Shown here one piece after another: positions 47,549 through 61,924 of a stretch of DNA of 64,000 bases; the stretch's first letter is position 1, and each line of letters starts with the position of its first letter. The notes under the pieces are model-generated. The model saw only the letters and a program-made list of their open reading frames with translations, made no database searches and had not been told where the DNA came from. The DNA is from Solwaraspora sp. WMMD791 (GTDB taxonomy: Bacteria > Actinomycetota > Actinomycetes > Mycobacteriales > Micromonosporaceae): the NCBI RefSeq assembly GCF_029581195.1, contig NZ_CP120737.1, forward strand, positions 124,001 to 188,000. Reading direction: 5' to 3'. Position numbers and translations under genes: made by a program.

Positions 47549-47623
47549 GGGCGATTAGCTCAGCGGGAGAGCGCTTCGTTCACACCGAAGAGGTCACTGG
47601 TTCGATCCCAGTATCGCCCACCA
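47549..47623 (+). tRNA. tRNA-Val(CAC), AICE integration target
   Basis: 75 nt including encoded CCA. Acceptor GGGCGAT pairs with ATCGCCC; D-arm TAGCTCAGCGGGAGAG; anticodon loop TTCACAC with anticodon CAC on stem CTTCG/CGAAG; T-loop GGTTCGATCCC. A TACAGT -10-like hexamer lies about 14 nt upstream. The integrase gene begins 55 bp downstream on the opposite strand, so its 3' half is the likely attL core and the gene stays functional. Confidence 0.97.
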
Positions 47624-47677: not shown

Positions 47678-48898
47678 CTACTCCGGACCCTCAGCCGTCA
47701 GCGGATCGTCAGCGAACGCCTCTCGGATACGCTTGTCACGACCATCCGACTGATGGGTGTAGAGGTTCAAGGTCGTCGAGGGCTTCTCGTGGCCCATGAC
47801 CGCCTGGACGTCGTTGACGGGCACGCCGCGCGACACCAGCTCGGTCGCGTAGGAGTGCCGCAGGTCGTGAAAGCGCAATCCGCCTGGTGCCAGCTTCGCT
47901 ACGTGCGCAATGGCGTCCCGCTCAGTCGTAAACTCGGCGGTCCACTCGATGCCTTCGGAGTCGACCCACGTCGCACGCCACTTGAAGTGACCCATCCGGT
48001 CGATCCGTCCGAGTAGTCCGGCCCGGACCAAGGACGGACGCCAGACTCTCGCCCGGAACAGGGTCCGTCTGAGCGGACCTCCGGTGCTGTTTGTGAACAC
48101 CTCGCCGATCGGACCAGCCGGGAACGCCTCCCGATGTGCGCGGAGAATCTCCGTGGCGAACTCCGGCAGGGGGACGGCGCGGCGACCCGCACGCGACTTC
48201 GGGTAGGGCTTCACTGTCACCGATCCGGCAACTTCGACCGCGACGCGAACCACGCTCGCGGTTCCGGCATCGAGGTCTAAGCACTCCCACCGAAGTCCGG
48301 TGCACTCGCCCCAGCGAAGTCCGGTGCCGCCGGCCAGCGCGACCAGTGCGCGGTAACGATCCGGAACGGCAGGCAGGAGTCGGGCGACCAGATCGGCGCG
48401 CGAGATTATGCGCTCATCCATGTCCTTCTTCCTGCGGGGTGGCACCTTGACTCCCTCGCAGGGGTTGACGCCGATTAGCCGGTCACGGACGGCCGAACGC
48501 AGGATCGCCGAGGTCAGCCGGAAGCATTCCGCCACCGTGGCGGGGGAGCGTCTGCGTGCGACGTCGGACACCCATCCCTGTACGGCCGTGTAGTCGATGC
48601 TGCCGATCGGAACGTCTCGCCAGCGGGGCAGCACATGCGTGCGCAGGATCGAGATGTCTCGGGCCATCGTGGCCAACTCGCCGTTGCGCGCTTCCTGCCA
48701 CCTGTCGGCGTACTTGCCGAACCGGAGACGTCCGGCGTGTGGGTCGACGTAGGTCCCTCGGGTGATGGTGGATTCGGTGTCGGCGAGGAAGGACGCAGCG
48801 GCCTTCTTGGTCTTGAAGGTCTTGGCTTTCTGTTTGCCGGTGGCGTCGCGCCAGTTGGCGCGGTAGGTGCCTGCGGGTGTCTTGATGATGTGTCCCAC
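47678..48898 (-). CDS. int: Tyrosine site-specific integrase
   Basis: A 406-residue phage-type recombinase. The N-terminal arm-binding region (GTYRANWRDATGKQKAKTFKTKKAA) is followed by a SAM-like core-binding domain (about 60-150) and the catalytic domain with Arg195 (GTGLRWGECTG), His344/Arg347 (HDLRHSYATEL), His370 (MGHEKPSTT) and nucleophile Tyr380 (LNLYTH). An insert of about 20 residues (GRIDRMGHFKWRATWVDSEG) sits before the HxxR motif, as in some AICE integrases. It inserts the element into tRNA-Val. The xis gene is 30 bp upstream. Confidence 0.96.
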   Translation of the reverse strand: MGHIIKTPAGTYRANWRDATGKQKAKTFKTKKAAASFLADTESTITRGTYVDPHAGRLRFGKYADRWQEARNGELATMARDISILRTHVLPRWRDVPIGSIDYTAVQGWVSDVARRRSPATVAECFRLTSAILRSAVRDRLIGVNPCEGVKVPPRRKKDMDERIISRADLVARLLPAVPDRYRALVALAGGTGLRWGECTGLRWECLDLDAGTASVVRVAVEVAGSVTVKPYPKSRAGRRAVPLPEFATEILRAHREAFPAGPIGEVFTNSTGGPLRRTLFRARVWRPSLVRAGLLGRIDRMGHFKWRATWVDSEGIEWTAEFTTERDAIAHVAKLAPGGLRFHDLRHSYATELVSRGVPVNDVQAVMGHEKPSTTLNLYTHQSDGRDKRIREAFADDPLTAEGPE

Positions 48899-55257: not shown

Positions 55258-55526
55258 CGGGTTCCCTTGTCGTGGAGAGCGCGGAGGTAGTTGAGGACGC
55301 GGCGGCCGGGTCGGATGGTGCGGCCGTCGCCGTCGCAGCGGCGGCAGAGCCGGAAGTGCCGGCCGAGGGGTGAGGGGCGGCGGCCGGTGCCGTGGCAGCG
55401 GCGGCAGTGCCCGAACGGGTAGAGCCAGCACAGCAGCCCGTAACCGACGGTGACGGCGGCGAGGGTCAGCACGAGTAGGCCGATGTGGATGGTGGTGGTG
55501 GTCGCGGTCGCGGCGAGGGTGGGCAC
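55254..55526 (-). CDS. Membrane protein with DnaJ-like CxxCxGxG zinc motifs
   Basis: A 90-residue protein: an N-terminal membrane segment (IHIGLLVLTLAAVTVGYGLLCW) and two half zinc motifs (CRRCHGTG, CRRCDGDG) as in DnaJ zinc fingers. The GTG start has GGAGG. Probably an inner-membrane protein with its zinc centre in the cytoplasm; a transfer role is possible as it lies after ftsK. Confidence 0.6.
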   Translation of the reverse strand: MPTLAATATTTTIHIGLLVLTLAAVTVGYGLLCWLYPFGHCRRCHGTGRRPSPLGRHFRLCRRCDGDGRTIRPGRRVLNYLRALHDKGTR

Positions 55527-55573
55527 CGGGCAGCCTCCGGGGCGGGTTTTCGGGTATCAGGGCTGGTGGGGGC

Positions 55574-55665
55574 GACCCGCGACCGGTGGCCGTATGCGCT
55601 GACCAGGCCGGTCGCGGGTCGAGTCGCGTTGCCGCGACCGGTCGCGGGCGGGCCGCGACCGGTCA
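55574..55665. repeat. GCGACCGGT repeats and palindromes after ftsK (candidate clt/TRS)
   Basis: Inverted repeat GACCCGCGACCGG / CCGGTCGCGGGTC (55574-55586, 55608-55620), perfect palindrome CCGCGACCGGTCGCGG (55632-55647), and another CCGCGACCGGT at 55653. TraB-type translocases of Streptomyces bind short GACCC-type repeats near their 3' ends. A terminator is the alternative. Confidence 0.6.
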
Positions 55666-57834
55666 GGCAGCCTTACGACGGGCGATCGCGGCGTCGATGT
55701 CGTCGGCTTTGGCTCCCTTGAGTGCCTTACCGGACCGCTTGACGTCTACGCTGCGTACACCGAACGCCCGGACCTGAGCGGAGATCGCTTCGGCGGTGGT
55801 GTCGGCGTACGCCTCGGGGACACGGGCGGCGAGGCGGGCGGCGATCTCTTCCCACTGCGCCCCGGTCTCGCCGGGTTCGATCACCGCGCGGACGTCGGCG
55901 AGGACGTCCCGCGTGAGGCGGGTGACGTCTTCCCCGGCGGCCATCCCGGACAGCGTCCCGGCCGCCTCGCGTAGCTTCCGGGCGGCGGTCAGGATCTTCT
56001 CGGCGTCGTCTGCGTCAGCGAGGTAGGTCCGCACGGTGGGGGTGGCGTCGGACGCGCCGCGCAGGATGCCGACGCCCTTGTAGGAGGGCAGCAGCGTCGA
56101 GGAGTCGTAGCCCTCGGAGTTCGCCCCGGCCCCAAGGACGAGGTCGGACACCTGCCACGACCCGGTACGCAGACTGAACCGGACCTGGTGGTTGTCGCGG
56201 AAGCTGATGAACTGCTGGGCCACCTGACCGGCACCGACCCCGGACGGGCGTTGGGTGGCGTCGACGAAGATGACCCCGGCGGCCGGGGCGACCTTGACCA
56301 GGTAGACCAGCAGACCCGCGATCTCCTTCGACACCTCGCCGAGGTCGAAGTACTCCTGAAACTCGTCGAGCACGACCATCCGCACCGGCATCCGGTACTT
56401 GGGGTCGCGGGCGATCTCACGGGTCAGCTTGCCCTCGGGGCAGATGTCGACGGGCAGCTTCGACAGCCGCTCGTAGCGGTCCTGCACGTCGGCTTTGATC
56501 TCCCGCAGCGCTTCCACGACGATCTCCGCCGGGTCGCCGTCGCGGGTCATCGCCAACCCGAACGCGTACCGGTCGGCGACCAGGGCGAACTTGCGCCAGT
56601 CGGGTTTGCCGCCACCGTCGAGGACGGTCAGCTTCACGTACGGGTCCAGGGCGGCGTAGAGGGCCAGCAGCCGGGCGGCGAACGTCTTGCCCTGCCTCGG
56701 TTGCGCGCCGATCAGCACGCTGTTCCACATCAGGTCGACGGTGACCTTGCCGCCGCGTTCGTCGAGGCCGAACGCGGCCGGCTGCCAGATGTCGGTGGCC
56801 TTGCACCGCAGCAGCGGCGTCCGGCCGGCACCTTGGGCGAGGGGGTCCCGGTCGGCCACCCACAACGTGTGGCGCCGGTGCGAGGACGGGTCGCGGGTGA
56901 TGAACACCTGCGACACGGCGACGTCCAGGCCGGACGCGATCGCACCGCGTGCCTTCACCGCGTCGTCGAACGTCTTGCCGTACGGCAGGTCGATCGACAC
57001 CTGAGAGCCGGTGCCGGACGGGTCACGGGCCATCGTCGACCCGAACCCGATCTGCTGATGCGCCTTGTCGGGGTGGCCGAGGCCGGCGGCGTAGTAGGCG
57101 CGCAGGATGATGTCCGGGTTGACCCGCCGGAACCGGCCCGACACGGTGGCCGGGGTGATGATCGGCCGGTCCGCCGGCCGTCCGATCCGGGCCAGCCAGG
57201 CGACCGCGCAGCCGCCGACAGCGGCGGTCGCCCACCACGGGGCGGCGGCCCACAGCAGCGGTCCGGCCACGCCGACCGTGACCGCTTCGACGACCAGGAC
57301 CAGGCCACGCCACGCGCGGGTGGCCTTCACCTCCCGGTGCAGCTTCTGCCACGCATGCCAGTCCCCGGCGTCGGCGGCGCGCTGCCGTAGCCCGGTCTGC
57401 TCCGCCAGCCACCACCACCGGATGTGCCGGCCGGCGAGACGGGCCGCGCCGACCGACGCCCAGAACGCGGCCAGCACGGCGTACCGGGGGGACCGGACCG
57501 CGTGGTAACCGGCCCGGTAGGCGACCAGACCGGCCGCGTCGCGCACCGTGGCGCGGATGTTGACCCAGTTCGCCAGCTGGGCCGGGATGATCGGCCGGCG
57601 ACCGTCCGGCCCGGCCGACACCGGCGGCGGGTCGACCAGGGTGCCGCCCGGTTGCGGCGACTCGTCCAGCACCACATCGAAGTGCGTGCCATCCGACCCG
57701 GCACGGGGGCTACGCCGGTCCCGGACCGCGTCCAGGTCCACAACCTCAGCACCCGGCCCGCCACCGGCGGCGGGGGTAGTCAGATCGGCTTCCGCCGCCG
57801 ACCAGTCGAAACGGTCATCGTTCGGGGACGTCAT
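55663..57834 (-). CDS. FtsK/TraB-type DNA translocase for conjugative transfer
   Basis: A 723-residue membrane ATPase that pumps double-stranded DNA between hyphae. Membrane spans at about 115-135 and 178-215; Walker A 376-384 (GAQPRQGKT), Walker B 486-491 (MVVLDEF), and a C-terminal winged-helix gamma-like domain (ISAQVRAFGVRSVDVKRSGKALKGAKADDIDAAIA). Such single-protein systems need only a short cis site (clt). Class I hairpin is in the leader, and clt-like repeats lie at the 3' end. Confidence 0.93.
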   Translation of the reverse strand: MTSPNDDRFDWSAAEADLTTPAAGGGPGAEVVDLDAVRDRRSPRAGSDGTHFDVVLDESPQPGGTLVDPPPVSAGPDGRRPIIPAQLANWVNIRATVRDAAGLVAYRAGYHAVRSPRYAVLAAFWASVGAARLAGRHIRWWWLAEQTGLRQRAADAGDWHAWQKLHREVKATRAWRGLVLVVEAVTVGVAGPLLWAAAPWWATAAVGGCAVAWLARIGRPADRPIITPATVSGRFRRVNPDIILRAYYAAGLGHPDKAHQQIGFGSTMARDPSGTGSQVSIDLPYGKTFDDAVKARGAIASGLDVAVSQVFITRDPSSHRRHTLWVADRDPLAQGAGRTPLLRCKATDIWQPAAFGLDERGGKVTVDLMWNSVLIGAQPRQGKTFAARLLALYAALDPYVKLTVLDGGGKPDWRKFALVADRYAFGLAMTRDGDPAEIVVEALREIKADVQDRYERLSKLPVDICPEGKLTREIARDPKYRMPVRMVVLDEFQEYFDLGEVSKEIAGLLVYLVKVAPAAGVIFVDATQRPSGVGAGQVAQQFISFRDNHQVRFSLRTGSWQVSDLVLGAGANSEGYDSSTLLPSYKGVGILRGASDATPTVRTYLADADDAEKILTAARKLREAAGTLSGMAAGEDVTRLTRDVLADVRAVIEPGETGAQWEEIAARLAARVPEAYADTTAEAISAQVRAFGVRSVDVKRSGKALKGAKADDIDAAIARRKAA

Positions 57835-57871
57835 GATGAGGGTTCCTCCATCAGATGGTTGGTGGAAGGGG

Positions 57872-57916
57872 CCGGCGGCACAGCACGGTTTTCCAGGCCA
57901 TGGGCTGTGCCGCCGG
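57872..57916 (-). ncRNA. Class I conserved-loop hairpin, copy A (ftsK leader)
   Basis: 13-bp perfect stem (CCGGCGGCACAGC/GCTGTGCCGCCGG) around a 19-nt loop reading CCATGGCCTGGAAAACCGT on the minus strand. Two other copies (59656, 61412) share the GGCCTxGGAAxCC loop. Lies between a small gene and the ftsK start. Possibly a leader RNA element or processing site; naming is inference. Confidence 0.6.
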
Positions 57917-57949
57917 GATCCGACAACCGGCGGTGCCGGCTTGTGCTGG

Positions 57950-58120
57950 TCAGTTCTGCCGCTGCGTCCGGCCGCCCTCGCGCAGGACCTCGTACGTGCG
58001 ACGGCGGACCGGCGCGATCAGCTGGCGGATCTCGTCGTTGCTCGCCCCGGCCGGCACGGTGATGCCGGCCGCCTTGGCCTGTTCCCGGAGCATCCGCCGC
58101 TCGGTGGAGTTGTCGGCCAT
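57950..58120 (-). CDS. 56-residue hypothetical protein
   Basis: MADNSTERRMLREQAKAAGI begins a charged helical protein with a Lsr2-like end sequence (TVPAGASNDEIRQLIAPVR; pattern as in SAP/Lsr2 C-domain helices), so perhaps DNA-binding. GGAGGAACC precedes the ATG. The AICE cargo of small genes starts here. Confidence 0.6.
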   Translation of the reverse strand: MADNSTERRMLREQAKAAGITVPAGASNDEIRQLIAPVRRRTYEVLREGGRTQRQN

Positions 58121-58137
58121 CTCGGTTCCTCCTTCGC

Positions 58138-58198
58138 CCGGCGCTCTGCCGGTCCCACCGGCGGCCCGTACAGGGGCGGGCCGCCGTAGGCACCGTCA
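58138..58198 (-). ncRNA. Class II intercistronic repeat, copy 1
   Basis: On the minus strand it starts at the upstream gene's stop (TGACGGTGCC), has a 10-bp stem CGGCGGCCCG/CGGGCCGCCG, then GACCGGCAGAGCGCCGG with a 5-bp hairpin. Its stem sequence differs from the other copies while pairing holds. Confidence 0.65.
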
Positions 58199-58360
58199 GC
58201 GACGCCACCAGGGGACGGACTGTTCGGCCTCGATCACCCGGCTGTTCGCCTCGACGATCTCCGGCGTCACGTCTTTGCTCGTGCTGCTGACCCGCTCCAG
58301 CTCGGCGCGGGCGTCCCGGTGCCGCTGGATCGCGGCCTTCCTGTCGTCCTTGCTGCTCAC
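58196..58360 (-). CDS. 54-residue hypothetical protein
   Basis: VSSKDDRKAAIQRHRDARAE ... EVEQSVPWWRR-like charged helical protein, ending AEQSVPWWRR. GTG with GGGGGAAGG upstream. Coiled-coil-like, no family recognised. Confidence 0.6.
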   Translation of the reverse strand: MSSKDDRKAAIQRHRDARAELERVSSTSKDVTPEIVEANSRVIEAEQSVPWWRR

Positions 58361-58379
58361 GGCCTTCCCCCTCTCGCTG

Positions 58380-58444
58380 CCGGCGCTCTGCCGGTCCCCT
58401 TGCCGACCCGGCCACCGGGGGCCGGGTCGACGCGGGCACCGTCA
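58380..58444 (-). ncRNA. Class II intercistronic repeat, copy 2
   Basis: TGACGGTGCCCGCGT, 10-bp stem CGACCCGGCC/GGCCGGGTCG, GGCAAGGGGACCGGCAGAGC and GCCGG, ending 19 bp before the next start. Begins exactly at the previous stop codon. Confidence 0.65.
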
Positions 58445-58579
58445 GCGCTGCTGGCGCATCCCGTCGGACCAGGTCTGCGCGTACTGGCCGGTGGTGGAGG
58501 CGATGAAGACGCCGTTGTCGCGGACCTTCCCGCCCTTGCCGGGCTTGTCCTTCGGCTTCTTGTCCTTGGCCTTGCTCAT
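58442..58579 (-). CDS. 45-residue lysine-rich protein
   Basis: MSKAKDKKPKDKPGKGGKVR then DNGVFIASTTGQYAQTWSDG. Highly basic N-terminus suggests nucleic-acid binding. Start has GGAG 13 nt upstream, an unusually long spacing. Not recognised. Confidence 0.55.
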   Translation of the reverse strand: MSKAKDKKPKDKPGKGGKVRDNGVFIASTTGQYAQTWSDGMRQQR

Positions 58580-58631
58580 ACGGGGGTCACTGCTCCTTGC
58601 AGGTGTGGTTGACCAGGGCAGACCGGGCGGG

Positions 58632-58763
58632 TCAGTCCCGCACGCCGCAGCACGGGCACTGGCGGGGGTCACGCGGCGGGCAGGCGCAGCCACACGTCCA
58701 GCACTTACCGCCCCGGTGGGCGCAGCTGCACTTGCATCCGGCGGGCTTGGCTTGCAGGTTCAC
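58632..58763 (-). CDS. 43-residue cysteine-rich microprotein
   Basis: Ten cysteines in 43 residues (GCKCSCAH, KCWTCGCACPP, QCPCCGVRD). AAGGAG precedes the GTG. Resembles metal-binding peptides such as metallothioneins by composition; no family assigned. Confidence 0.6.
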   Translation of the reverse strand: MNLQAKPAGCKCSCAHRGGKCWTCGCACPPRDPRQCPCCGVRD

Positions 58764-58783
58764 GGCGGTGCTCCTTCCGGTGG

Positions 58784-58844
58784 CCGGCGCTCTGCCGGTC
58801 CCCTTGCCGACCCGACCGGGGCCGGGTCGACGTGGGCACCGTCA
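58784..58844 (-). ncRNA. Class II intercistronic repeat, copy 3
   Basis: Same design: stop codon TGACGGTGCCCACGT, 7-bp stem CGACCCG/CGGGTCG, AAGGGGACCGGCAGAGCGCC GG. Differs from copy 4 only at one base. Confidence 0.65.
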
Positions 58845-59063
58845 GCTGCGGACACCGGCCAGCAGCGCGTGAACGTGCGCGGCGGCGATCAGCCGGTCAG
58901 CGTTGGCCGGGGCGTTCAGCCCGTACCAGCCGCCGCGTTCGACGGTGGCCGTCCTGAACCCGCCCGCCGCAGCGTCCGGCCGGCTCGGGGTGAGCATGTG
59001 CGCCTGGTTGAGTAGGTCGACGGCGGTCCGGTAGTGCTCGTCGGCGGTCATCGGCGTGGTCAT
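58842..59063 (-). CDS. 73-residue hypothetical protein
   Basis: MTTPMTADEHYRTAVDLLNQAHML then RTATVERGGWYGLNAPANADRLIAAAHVHALLAG. A two-helix protein with a short strand; GGAGAG precedes ATG 59063. Homologs of this kind occur on AICEs as unknown. Confidence 0.65.
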   Translation of the reverse strand: MTTPMTADEHYRTAVDLLNQAHMLTPSRPDAAAGGFRTATVERGGWYGLNAPANADRLIAAAHVHALLAGVRS

Positions 59064-59083
59064 CTCAGGTCTCTCCATTCCTG

Positions 59084-59144
59084 CCGGCGCTCTGCCGGTC
59101 CCCTTGCCGACCCGACCGGGGCCGGGTCGACGCGGGCACCGTCA
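59084..59144 (-). ncRNA. Class II intercistronic repeat, copy 4
   Basis: As copy 3: begins at the stop TGACGGTGCCCGCGT, 7-bp stem CGACCCG/CGGGTCG, AAGGGGACCGGCAGAGC then GCCGG before the next gene's ribosome site. Confidence 0.65.
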
Positions 59145-59612
59145 GGCGGCGATGACCAGGGCGGACAGGAACAGGAACCCGACATGCCACGACTGGTCGA
59201 GCGCGTACGCGCCGGTCCCAAGTGAGGGGTTGTCGTCGCGGTCGGGACGGGGCGCGCCGAGTCGGTAGAAGTCACCAGACCCGCACCACTCGGCGACGCG
59301 ACGCAGTGGGGTGCGCCGGTCGGCGAGGTAGTGGGTCAGGCCGTTGACGGCGGTGCCGGCCAGCAGCGCCACCGGGTCGGGCCGCCACCCGGTCGCGGCG
59401 GCGAGCAGCGCCAGCGCGGCCCATCCGGTTGCGAGGTAGGTTGCGACGTGCGCGGCACACGCGGCGCGGCCGCGCCAGCCGGGCAGGCCCTTCGTGTCGG
59501 CCTGGTGCTGCGTCTGAATCCAGTGGTCGGCGACCTGATGTGCCGTGTAGAGGGCGACGTACACGGCGGCGACCAGGGCCAGCCTGCCGGCGGTGTCGGT
59601 GTTTGAGAACAT
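59142..59612 (-). CDS. DUF3307-like membrane protein
   Basis: A 156-residue protein with four membrane segments: LALVAAVYVALYTAHQVADHWIQ, ACAAHVATYLATGWAALALLAA, VALLAGTAVNGLTHYLADRR and SWHVGFLFLSALVIA, with the conserved H-Q...D-H-W pattern. GGAGGAATC precedes the ATG. May help transfer or membrane organisation. Confidence 0.75.
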   Translation of the reverse strand: MFSNTDTAGRLALVAAVYVALYTAHQVADHWIQTQHQADTKGLPGWRGRAACAAHVATYLATGWAALALLAAATGWRPDPVALLAGTAVNGLTHYLADRRTPLRRVAEWCGSGDFYRLGAPRPDRDDNPSLGTGAYALDQSWHVGFLFLSALVIAA

Positions 59613-59655
59613 GGGGATTCCTCCCGAGAGGTCTTCGGGCTGATCGGGGTTGGGG

Positions 59656-59701
59656 CCGGCGGCACAGCACTGGTTCCTAGGCCGTTGGGCTGTGCCGCCG
59701 G
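59656..59701 (-). ncRNA. Class I conserved-loop hairpin, copy B
   Basis: Stem identical to copy A (13 bp) but loop CCAACGGCCTAGGAACCAGT (minus strand). Sits before the DUF3307 gene, after a stop. Confidence 0.6.
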
Positions 59702-59707
59702 GCGGGG

Positions 59708-59830
59708 TCAGGTGCAGGCGGGGGTGTCGTCGTCGGCGTGTACCGGGGCGGGCCGGTCACCCCACGGCCGGCCGCCGGTCGGTGGTGGTGCGGGTCGGGT
59801 CGGCCGGCCGCATCCGGGACACGGGGTCAT
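59708..59830 (-). CDS. 40-residue zinc-ribbon-like peptide
   Basis: MTPCPGCGRPTRPAPPPTGG then DDDTPACT. One CxxC pair only. Start overlaps the end of the Spd-like gene (ATGA). Confidence 0.55.
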   Translation of the reverse strand: MTPCPGCGRPTRPAPPPTGGRPWGDRPAPVHADDDTPACT

Positions 59831-60657
59831 CGGGTGGTCTCCTTGCGGCTGGTGACCATGAGGGCGGCGGACGCCATGACCATGAGTCCGTCGACCGCGA
59901 GGGGGCCGATGGCGACGGTCATCGGGTCTTCGCCGAAGTGGGCGAGTAGTCCGGACAGGTGCCGGTAGGACACGACGGCGGCGACCAGGGCGACCGGCAG
60001 CACACCGACGACGCGGGCGAAGAACCACCAGAAGCCGTCGCCCCAGGCGATGCGGGTCAGGATCTCGACCGCGACGAACAGGGCGATGGGCCAGAACACG
60101 CTGATCGCGATGGCGAGCGGCGACGGGGACCAGTCGACCGGGGCCGTCCAGCCGTCCGGCGCGCCGGGCGGCGGTTTCGGAAGGTAGGTGTGTGCCACGT
60201 TCGCCGCGATCGACACCACCCCGCCGAGGGCGACACCGACGTAGGCCCACACCCGGCCGGGGGCCGGTCGGCGGCGACGCCGACCGGCGTCAGCCGCCGC
60301 CGGGGTGATCTCCGGAACTGGTTCTGCGGCAACCGTGGCCAGCGGAGACGGCGGCGGCGGGGTGTCGGTGGCGAGCGTCGGCGGCGTCGGGGTGATGCCG
60401 ACAGTGGGTATGGCGTCCGGGTCCGGTCCTGCGTGGTCGCCGGTGGTGTCGGCGGCCGGTGGTGCCGGGTCGGCGGTGGGTGGGGCGAGGTCGGCGCGAA
60501 GGCTGTCCAGGATCACGCCTGCCTTGCGGTGACCCACGCGCAGTTCGGTCTTGATGCGGTTCTGGGAGGGCAGCGCGCCGAGTCGGGCGGCCAGGTCTCG
60601 TGCGGCCGGCATCAGGTCGGCCACGGCGGGCGGGTAGACGCTCGGTGGTGCGGTCAT
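59827..60657 (-). CDS. Spd-like membrane protein (DUF2637-type) with N-terminal HTH
   Basis: A 276-residue protein. N-terminal residues 1-55 are an HTH of the type LAARLGALPSQNRIKTELRVGHRKAGVILD, followed by a Pro/Ala/Thr linker and four membrane segments; the last ones hold HLSGLLAHFGEDPMTVAIGPLAVDGLMVMASAALMV, the DUF2637 signature. Spd proteins widen plasmid spread within mycelium. The ATG overlaps the stop of the gene before. Confidence 0.8.
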   Translation of the reverse strand: MTAPPSVYPPAVADLMPAARDLAARLGALPSQNRIKTELRVGHRKAGVILDSLRADLAPPTADPAPPAADTTGDHAGPDPDAIPTVGITPTPPTLATDTPPPPSPLATVAAEPVPEITPAAADAGRRRRRPAPGRVWAYVGVALGGVVSIAANVAHTYLPKPPPGAPDGWTAPVDWSPSPLAIAISVFWPIALFVAVEILTRIAWGDGFWWFFARVVGVLPVALVAAVVSYRHLSGLLAHFGEDPMTVAIGPLAVDGLMVMASAALMVTSRKETTR

Positions 60658-60854
60658 CGGGTGTTCCTCCTCACCGGGGTGAGTCGCCAGTGGGTGACGG
60701 TGTAGGCGCCGGTGATGCCGGCTTCGGCCGCCAGGTCGGCGGCGACCTGGTCGCGGATCTGCTCCGGGGTGGTGCCGGCCGGGACGGGCACGGTGCCGTC
60801 GGTGAAGAACCACTCCTGGCCGGCTTCGATCTCGATCTCGTAGACGCCGGTCAT
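60654..60854 (-). CDS. 66-residue hypothetical protein
   Basis: MTGVYEIEIEAGQEWFFTDG ... TTPEQIRDQVAADLAAEAGITGAYTVTHWRL. A small alpha/beta protein overlapping both neighbours by 1-4 bp. No family recognised. Confidence 0.6.
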   Translation of the reverse strand: MTGVYEIEIEAGQEWFFTDGTVPVPAGTTPEQIRDQVAADLAAEAGITGAYTVTHWRLTPVRRNTR

Positions 60855-61207
60855 CAGCTGGTCACCCCCGCGAGGGCGGTCAGGGCGGTCGTGGTGTCGG
60901 TGTCGAGTGGGGTGGTGGTGGGGTGCTCCATTGCGTGGGCGGAGATCTTCCAGCCGTGCCAGGTCGGCCAGGCGGCCAGCGACCGGTAGGGCCGGCCGTC
61001 GGTGAGGGTGCCCTGGTGTTCGATCGGCTGGCCGGGGGTGTCCAGGCCAGCGGCGGTCAGCCAGGCCCGAAGGTCGGCGATCGTGTCGAAGTCGACGCTG
61101 AGCTTCCCGTCGCCCAGGTCGCGGATGGTGTTCGGTGCGCCGGTCAGCAGCAGCGCGGCCATGACCGCGCGGCGGGGAATCCGGGTGGCCGTCGGGGCGT
61201 CAGTCAT
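60854..61207 (-). CDS. 117-residue hypothetical protein
   Basis: RAVMAALLLTGAPNTIRDLGDGKLSVDFDTIADLRAWLTAAGL is the core; no family recognised though similar proteins sit in AICE operons. Overlaps the upstream gene by 8 bp and the next by 1. Confidence 0.6.
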   Translation of the reverse strand: MTDAPTATRIPRRAVMAALLLTGAPNTIRDLGDGKLSVDFDTIADLRAWLTAAGLDTPGQPIEHQGTLTDGRPYRSLAAWPTWHGWKISAHAMEHPTTTPLDTDTTTALTALAGVTS

Positions 61208-61382
61208 TGCCGGCCGCCTGTCCCGCCCGGCGGGCGATCCGGTCCGCCGCCCGCTGGCCGGGGCTTCCGGCCGGCAGCTGGGCTTCCCTGGTCGCGGTCA
61301 CCGCGATCGACGGGCACAGCCCGCACCGGCCGGTGTTGTTGCAGGTACACGCGTTGCGGTCGTACCGGGTACGGTTGAACAT
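61200..61382 (-). CDS. 60-residue protein with clustered cysteines
   Basis: MFNRTRYDRNACTCNNTGRC, GLCPS: four Cys within 12 residues, then a basic tail. GGAGGTCC precedes the ATG. The class I hairpin copy C lies 30 bp upstream. Metal binding likely. Confidence 0.6.
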   Translation of the reverse strand: MFNRTRYDRNACTCNNTGRCGLCPSIAVTATREAQLPAGSPGQRAADRIARRAGQAAGND

Positions 61383-61411
61383 TCGAGCGGACCTCCAAGT
61401 CCGTGTTCGGA

Positions 61412-61458
61412 CCAGGGGCGCAACCACGGTTTCCAGGCCGAGGCGGTTGCGCCCCTGG
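61412..61458 (-). ncRNA. Class I conserved-loop hairpin, copy C (different stem)
   Basis: 14-bp stem CCAGGGGCGCAACC/GGTTGCGCCCCTGG, largely different in sequence from copies A and B, around a loop GCCTCGGCCTGGAAACCGT (minus strand) almost the same as copy A. Stem change with pairing kept is covariation evidence. Confidence 0.65.
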
Positions 61459-61504
61459 GGCATGTATGAGGACCGTCCCCGGCGTCGGGAACGGGGCAGA
61501 GCCA

Positions 61505-61747
61505 TCACGCGGCCAACCGCACCGGCATCACCGCAGCGACACCCAGAGCGGCGGCCACACGCATCACCCGCGACTCGGCACGCCGCAACCGGCGGCGGTC
61601 CAAGACGGACGGGCCACCACCAGCGGCAAGCGCGGCAATCTCAGCGTCCACCAGGTCAAGCTCAGCCGCGATCAGCGGCCACTCGGCTTCGATCGCGGCC
61701 AGGTCCTCCGGGGACGGGTCGGCGCGGTCAGACAGGTCGTGAGACAT
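61505..61747 (-). CDS. DUF6284-like protein
   Basis: An 80-residue protein: DPSPEDLAAIEAEWPLIAAELDLVDAEIAAL, then RRRLRRAESRVMRVAA. The AIEAEWPLIAAEL motif is typical of a family on AICEs and plasmids of actinomycetes (DUF6284 from memory). Confidence 0.75.
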   Translation of the reverse strand: MSHDLSDRADPSPEDLAAIEAEWPLIAAELDLVDAEIAALAAGGGPSVLDRRRLRRAESRVMRVAAALGVAAVMPVRLAA

Positions 61748-61771
61748 GAACGGTCGACATTCCTCTCAAGG

Positions 61772-61924
61772 TCAGCGACGCAGCCGGCGGCGGGTAGCAC
61801 CCGAACAGCCACGACACGTCGACTCATCGGGAGCCAGCGGCGAAAGCGCTCCGCAGCGGCCGCAGGTACGCCACACAGCGGACTTCCGGGACGAAACACG
61901 AACAGACGACGCGATCGACGTCAT
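61772..61924 (-). CDS. 50-residue zinc-ribbon protein, first gene of AICE operon
   Basis: CGRCGALSPLAPDESTCRGC with two CxxC pairs and a basic tail. GAGGTGAG precedes the ATG. Starts the 14-kb minus-strand run. Function unknown. Confidence 0.6.
   Translation of the reverse strand: MTSIASSVRVSSRKSAVWRTCGRCGALSPLAPDESTCRGCSGATRRRLRR

Follow-up and report, generated by a model that had tools for sequence, protein, structure and literature searches.

A conserved, apparently undescribed family of hairpins ahead of conjugation genes in many actinobacteria suggests a shared way of controlling DNA transfer

Control of transfer in actinomycete integrative and conjugative elements (AICEs) has been described at the promoter level, through GntR-type repressors. 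We analysed a 64,000-nucleotide stretch of the Solwaraspora sp. WMMD791 genome (contig NZ_CP120737.1, positions 124,001 to 188,000; this whole stretch is called the window, and positions are counted from its first letter). Its minus strand carries an AICE-like element with an integrase, an excisionase-like gene, a Prim-Pol gene, a TraB/FtsK-like gene and a transfer-type operon. Three minus-strand hairpins, A (57872-57916), B (59656-59701) and C (61412-61458), sit in the gaps of this operon, which extends up to a DUF6284 gene (61505-61747, minus strand, upstream of C). They belong to a conserved and apparently undescribed family of hairpins lying ahead of conjugation genes in many actinobacteria. 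This conservation suggests, but does not prove, a shared way of controlling the genes for DNA transfer.

Closest described systems

The comparisons in this section hold for the available portions of the cited papers. The nearest published features that we found are the start-associated sequences (SAS) and extended start-associated sequences (ESAS) of Cluster K mycobacteriophages (PMC3203893), together with the repeats of Microbacterium Cluster EF/EG phages (PMC7302621). Like the hairpins described here, SAS/ESAS are inverted repeats present several times in one actinobacterial mobile genome, in gaps just upstream of the starts of different genes and mostly in one orientation. A further likeness to SAS is the GGG..AGGA..CCC-like ribosome-binding site ahead of the gene after hairpin B, in the linker at 59613-59655 (minus strand) before ATG 59612. 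This look-alike (GGGAGGAATCCCC) of the 13-bp GGGATAGGAGCCC-type SAS repeat at the start codon was seen at B only among the window copies, while the starts of the other copies vary (judged without formal scoring). The arms of ESAS are 17 bp long and imperfect, with a variable spacer of 4-13 bp, and their authors state that departures do not generally support RNA pairing (PMC3203893). In contrast, the present hairpins have covarying arms of 13-14 bp and a conserved loop of 17-23 nt, and thus do not have the structure of ESAS. Their position is also usually fixed relative to the stop codon of the gene upstream, and they lie in an AICE, whereas SAS/ESAS lie in phages without such anchoring.

Two other systems are partly similar. 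The I-shaped or U-poor stem-loop 3' ends (PMC8269248) likewise have a GC-rich stem after a stop codon without a U-tract; the hairpins studied here differ in having a long conserved loop, in the next start being about 40 nt further on and in being tied, at the sensitivity of our model, to the transfer operons of elements. The SpdA2-binding sequence sps of Streptomyces plasmids (PMC4170104) resembles them as a conserved palindrome associated with the transfer/spread genes of TraB-type elements, but it is 12 bp long, lies within spdA or directly ahead of it, is bound as duplex DNA and has no long loop. Hairpin-type terms gave nothing in the accessible text of PMC3218068 and only a line of the reference list in that of PMC9513070. 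No description of this hairpin class was found in the literature searched, a search outside which most subscription papers lay.

Structure, position and spread of the hairpins

Minus-strand hairpins at 57872, 59656 and 61412, with perfect stems of 13-14 bp and loops of 19-20 nt, each after a stop codon and before the next minus-strand gene, had been proposed in a preliminary description of this DNA, and the measured structures and their placement agreed with it. Hairpin A (13-bp stem, loop with GGCCTGGAAAACC) has a stop 33 nt before it and, 37 nt after it, the ATG at 57834 of the TraB/FtsK-like gene. Hairpin B (13-bp stem, loop with GGCCTAGGAACC) lies 6 nt behind a stop (TGA, 59710-59708) and 43 nt ahead of the ATG of a DUF3307-like gene. 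Hairpin C (14-bp stem, loop with GGCCTGGAAACC) lies between the DUF6284 gene and a 60-codon Cys-containing open reading frame (ORF), with a stop 46 nt before it and ATG 61382 29 nt after it. When compared with dinucleotide shuffles, the folding z-scores were -4.35 (A), -3.16 (B) and -4.38 (C), and the shuffles that folded as well as the real copy numbered 0/200, 2/200 and 0/200, respectively.

The stems of A and B are identical. Stem C keeps its pairing, as had been noted; the accompanying statement that most of its bases differ did not hold, since only 4 of 13 aligned pairs are changed, all four on both sides. The loop motif had to be corrected as well: GGCCTxGGAAxCC, as first written, fits none of the three copies exactly, and their consensus is GGCCTN(G)NAAACC with a one-base length change. 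The genome has three exact matches to the motif as first written, all outside the three hairpins, and allowing one mismatch recovered A, B and one unrelated site, a result equalled in 31 of 100 shuffles.

A covariance model built from the three copies (R1), as the preliminary description had proposed along with a comparison with Rfam, detected homologous hairpins with the same loop in many genomes. Within the window's family, R1 matched in 51 of 150 genomes, own genome included (18/44 genera), and a second model from 34 sequences (R2) matched in 119 of 300, again with the own genome (23/44 genera). At E 0.001, A, B and C were the only covariance-model matches in the 6.93 Mb genome itself (150 of 1948 first-look candidates scored). 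In a 396-genome sample of the phylum, R2 matched the own genome only; this search had stricter filters, 14 candidates scored per genome and one other family member among the genomes listed. The comparison with Rfam 15 gave no matching family: a scan of the window returned a tRNA only, and 57700-61600 scanned at E up to 5 returned nothing on the hairpins.

We also looked for a one-arm DNA pattern, which occurred in at least 119 stretches of named genomes and in 2 viral contigs. The full hairpin was present at E < 1e-6 in 27 of these 121 stretches, from Micromonospora, Asanoa, Salinispora, Plantactinospora, Virgisporangium, Actinoplanes and Catenuloplanes. Three of the seven genera were checked and are Micromonosporaceae, and the remaining ones presumably are too. 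Two of the 27 stretches are contigs of M. rosaria DSM 803; the species (a statement that does not concern these contigs) is the source organism of the AICE pMR2, according to the available part of PMC3364876. One of the two viral contigs, both from IMG/VR, gave a weak model match (E 0.0099); the second had no match at E 0.01. BLAST of hairpin A against phages and plasmids found nothing significant, with best E values of 7 and 0.5.

Pairing was assessed in 91 matches, from the window and 60 further loci (L049-L108) picked as strong or clustered among the matches listed; the set is therefore non-random, with some genomes represented repeatedly. Standard pairs filled 99.2% of 1177 stem cells (0.8% were unpaired) and changes on both sides were seen at 11 of 13 stem pairs, the most variable pair being A-U in 41 and G-C in 50 copies with 0 mismatches. 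On none of five pairing measures did any of 500 shuffles reach the observed value, and sliding the structure by 1-3 columns left at most 60% pairing. The alignment used for this had been fitted to the model, a procedure biased towards the structure, and the relatedness of the copies was not removed from it. Compensatory changes that exceed both shuffled and slid controls are as expected of a cis-acting structured RNA. Because there are homologues with the same loop, no Rfam match and strong compensatory changes, we consider a structured element to be supported. Of the earlier proposal of a structured RNA, the structure therefore stands, while its being RNA only was weakened by the stem mismatches and reversed loops described below. 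'RNA leader' was the wrong term, as the hairpins are intercistronic and usually 6 nt behind a stop codon.

Loop length was 17-23 nt in 89 of the 91 copies (the others being 6 and 26 nt), and RGCCT was present in 82. Within the loop a short helix closes an apical CCUNNNAA(A) of 8-9 nt, with 118 of 165 loops parsed. The outer of its two pairs was G-C in 86 of the 118 and C-G in 11, where the parser picks the best pairing and so leans to pairing, and where 4 of the 11 C-G loops were added from gaps with other stems. In L060, L061, L062 and L065, the gap after a PycTM-like gene carries CGCCTNGNAAACG-type loops in which this inner G-C pair is swapped to C-G; the loop in L062 is CGCCTCGAAACG.

With genes called by our own simple caller rather than a published one, none of the 91 hairpins overlapped a called gene, and both neighbouring genes lay on the strand of the hairpin in all 91. 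Such conserved orientation and position relative to genes are, again, as expected of a cis-acting structured RNA. In 68 of the 91 copies the called stop was followed at exactly 6 nt by the stem, over 18 upstream gene families and with all three stop codons (TGA 32, TAG 32, TAA 4). A called start lay 35-50 nt past the stem in 75 of 91, and C made up 52% and G 12.5% of the 20 nt directly after the stem. A fusion across the gap by read-through or frameshifting was unsupported, intergenic lengths modulo 3 being 23, 15 and 22 (remainders 0, 1 and 2) over 60 pairs.

The genes downstream of the 91 hairpins were TraB (28), the DUF3307 family (16), the PycTM-like family (8), the NUDIX family (3) and, for the rest, mostly small ORFs. 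TraB was present in 59 of 61 loci and the DUF6284 family in 58. Among 150 family genomes, 60 had TraB and a hairpin, 4 had the hairpin alone, 17 had TraB alone and 69 lacked both (Fisher p 3e-21); here the hairpin genomes came from the R2 search and the TraB genomes from a separate search, on the assumption that all 150 are within the 300. The TraB table had 116 rows, with at least four left out (three partial matches, and the weakest). When R1 matches were taken by locus, 66 of 78 lay upstream of TraB within 8 kb on the same strand, 2 lay on the opposite strand and 10 had no TraB nearby.

TraB copies without an R1 match often have a hairpin too. GGCCT loops were seen on clearly different stems (L141, L143, L164) and on changed but similar stems (L149, L154, L155, L174, L175), and the corresponding site in further families of the class is occupied by hairpins whose loops read, for example, ACCGCCAAGCAGC or CCCACCTCCTACAGCGA. 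When one uniform rule was applied (stem score of at least 9, within 25 nt of a stop and 10-75 nt before a start), a hairpin was found in 70 of 114 TraB loci (26/40 in the own family, 44/74 in other families). The 40 family loci had been chosen mainly for having no forward R1 match there; L109 (own), the truncated L112, L128 and L131, and L206 (a duplicate of L132) were left out of the 114. A loose loop motif, CC[TGA]N(1-4)[AC]A[AG], chosen after looking, was present in 51 of 60 pre-TraB loops of at least 14 nt versus about 17 in letter-shuffled loops, and its reverse complement in 4 of the 60; the 91 loops above (class I) had it forward in 70 and reversed in 12. Tall stems occurred in 159 of 306 same-strand gaps of the 60 family loci versus 1 of 1530 shuffled gaps. 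Not all of them are of this class, as 99 further gaps had other stems, many after TraB. In a genus of another family (g50, probably Streptomyces) TraB was found in 43 of 121 genomes; GTCGGCCGAC-type palindromes were seen near the 5' end of TraB in L207, L216, L217, L221 and L222.

Proposed role and alternative explanations

We give about an even chance to the explanation that the hairpin is an RNA element of the polycistronic mRNA, read via its loop, that sets the stability, processing or translation of neighbouring cistrons. The GC-rich stem would form in this mRNA just behind the ribosome halting at the upstream gene and would present the apical loop, with GG-CCUN(G)NAA(A)-CC here and, outside this lineage, CCGCCAAG or CCUCCUACAG, to be followed by a C-rich unpaired stretch and then by the next Shine-Dalgarno sequence. 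A factor of the host or of the element may recognise and bind the loop and so act on the adjacent cistrons, the outcome being joint control of the transfer genes. The results above establish the conservation, the pairing, the orientation, the position and an association with the TraB/FtsK-like gene and a few other genes of the elements; the protein-binding or processing role is what we infer. More tentatively, the hairpins might constitute a post-transcriptional conjugation regulon of TraB-type elements across several actinobacterial families, in which the loop classes GGCCUNGNAAACC, CCGCCAAG and CCUCCUACAG would be the specificities of one RNA-binding factor or of a co-evolving set, switching TraB and its partner genes together. 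A conserved stem-loop class recurring between transfer genes would move part of AICE transfer control into the mRNA. The loop could then be used as bait for the binding factor, and the covariance model could mark transfer operons in actinobacterial genomes.

Several observations weigh against an RNA element read via its loop. The copies are related by descent and their counts are not independent, and two of the window's own copies, A and C, do not have the 6-nt stop spacing. In 400 kb of the own chromosome, the 117 same-strand gaps included 17 with a comparable stem. Six of those hairpins begin 4 or 6 nt after the stop, so the stop spacing is a host habit of post-stop hairpins and not special. 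By the uniform rule 44 of the 114 TraB loci had no hairpin, and in 20 element regions of other families a tall stem was seen in 7 of 45 same-strand gaps; several copies per operon were therefore observed for the window's family alone. The stem mismatches, which are few, comprised 9 A-C versus 4 G-U cells; with G-U not exceeding A-C, the coding strand bears no mark of RNA wobble. Before TraB in L127, L139 and L140 the loop is reversed, as if inverted between the stem arms, and its polarity is thus not absolute. Finally, no trans-acting factor was found. Among 49 other-family loci, 4 had a detected DUF6284 gene, but 29 of the 49 hold only short TraB flanks, so these counts do not decide on it as a trans-factor.

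It is possible, although we lean away from it, that the hairpins are terminators lacking a U-tract ('I-shaped'), attenuators or stems that stabilise 3' ends, as found in GC-rich actinobacteria, with loops that are alike only because the element descends from a common ancestor. They do have the GC-rich stem of a canonical intrinsic terminator, and the stop-proximal stems of the chromosome fit this explanation, as do the 353 U-poor structured 3' ends of S. clavuligerus, compared by their authors with I-shaped terminators (PMC8269248, available part), and the short loops of some pre-TraB hairpins (L110, L111, L130, L161). A U-tract is lacking: one of 91 copies has at least four T among the 8 nt that follow the stem. 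A terminator scan found none at the hairpins, but it allows only loops of 3-8 nt. Nearly all loops lie outside the 4-8 nt that the accessible text of PMC8269248 cites as the E. coli optimum and finds to be similar in its own structured ends. Moreover, similar loops sit on dissimilar stems, while the loose motif was found in 0 of 8 long chromosomal loops, so that the loop is what differs from the chromosomal hairpins. A strong terminator would also be expected to silence the downstream TraB gene, because only about 40 nt lie between them and no sigma-70-like promoter was found in 55500-61800 by a consensus scan, which covers no other promoter types. The preliminary description had named two outcomes that would count against it, an absence of homologous loops elsewhere and ordinary terminators with random loops; neither was what we observed.

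Explanations at the DNA level are less probable. A hairpin extruded in single-stranded or supercoiled DNA, serving replication, transfer or module exchange and intergenic because insertion there is harmless, is unlikely in our estimate, although it would be equally expected to covary. The excess of A-C mismatches (G-T on the other strand), the occasional inversion of the loop and the fact that different genes abut one and the same element are all in its favour, and the opposite strand folds at lower energy in all three window copies, with weaker z-scores. Against it, orientation follows the genes in all 91 copies and the loop motif is far commoner forward than reversed; the polarity of the element is inseparable from transcription, however, because 38/38 integrase and 44/45 Prim-Pol genes are co-oriented with the hairpins. 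We regard double-stranded operators for a dimeric DNA-binding protein as improbable. Inverted repeats upstream of actinophage gene starts have been proposed as DNA-binding sites (PMC3203893) and SpdA2 binds its palindrome in Streptomyces plasmids (PMC4170104), as stated in the accessible parts of these papers, but the arms here covary pairwise with very few unpaired cells, the varying loop length would change the helical phase, and the part common to dissimilar stems is the loop. We set aside, as hardly credible, a pseudoknot between the loop CCU and the AGG of the following ribosome-binding site. Such pairing is possible nearly always, with CCUCC or CCUUC in some loops, and in class I (82 pairs) the longest stretch was 3.93 bp versus 3.76 for permuted partners (1/200 permutations), or 4.90 versus 4.69 bp with G-U allowed (0/200). 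This excess of about 0.2 bp was not, for Watson-Crick pairs, above that of shuffled loop letters (p 0.24), related loci share both partners, and the two other sets gave no excess (22 pairs, p 0.47; 37 pairs, p 0.97).

The host element and other features of the window

The integrase gene (47678-48898) adjoins a tRNA (47549-47620), beside which the helix-turn-helix, excisionase-like gene is also found. This tRNA is likely the integration site of the element; as to a second attachment (att) copy, no exact copy of at least 18 nt of the tRNA region was found after window position 48000. The TraB/FtsK-like translocase gene (55663-57834, minus strand) owes its name to tblastn similarity to plasmid genes annotated FtsK/SpoIIIE. 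Its protein had no Pfam match at E 0.01, none in a PDB sequence search and one weak match in NCBIfam (E 0.0088). The DUF3307-like gene downstream of hairpin B (59142-59612, minus strand) scored 20.9 bits, under the Pfam cut-off of 23 bits, while a relative (L049:7695-8162) scored 28.7, above it. The Cys-containing ORF downstream of hairpin C is at 61200-61382 (minus strand). As to the other two minus-strand linkers, that before the TraB start (57835-57871) is C-rich and G-poor with the Shine-Dalgarno sequence GGAGG, and in that before ATG 61382 (61383-61411) the Shine-Dalgarno sequence lies within GGAC-TTGGAG-GTCC.

The same operon has a second repeat, about 63 nt long, behind stop codons on the minus strand, at 58137-58199, 58379-58441, 58783-58845 and 59083-59145. 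It forms a tall hairpin whose inner stem, in the copy at 58137, is altered without loss of pairing. The gap 3' of the TraB gene (55527-55662) contains three CCGGTCGCGG-type repeats plus CCGCGACCGG; judging from its position, it is a possible transfer locus (clt). In many relatives, the gap after TraB contains GCTAGC-type palindromes.

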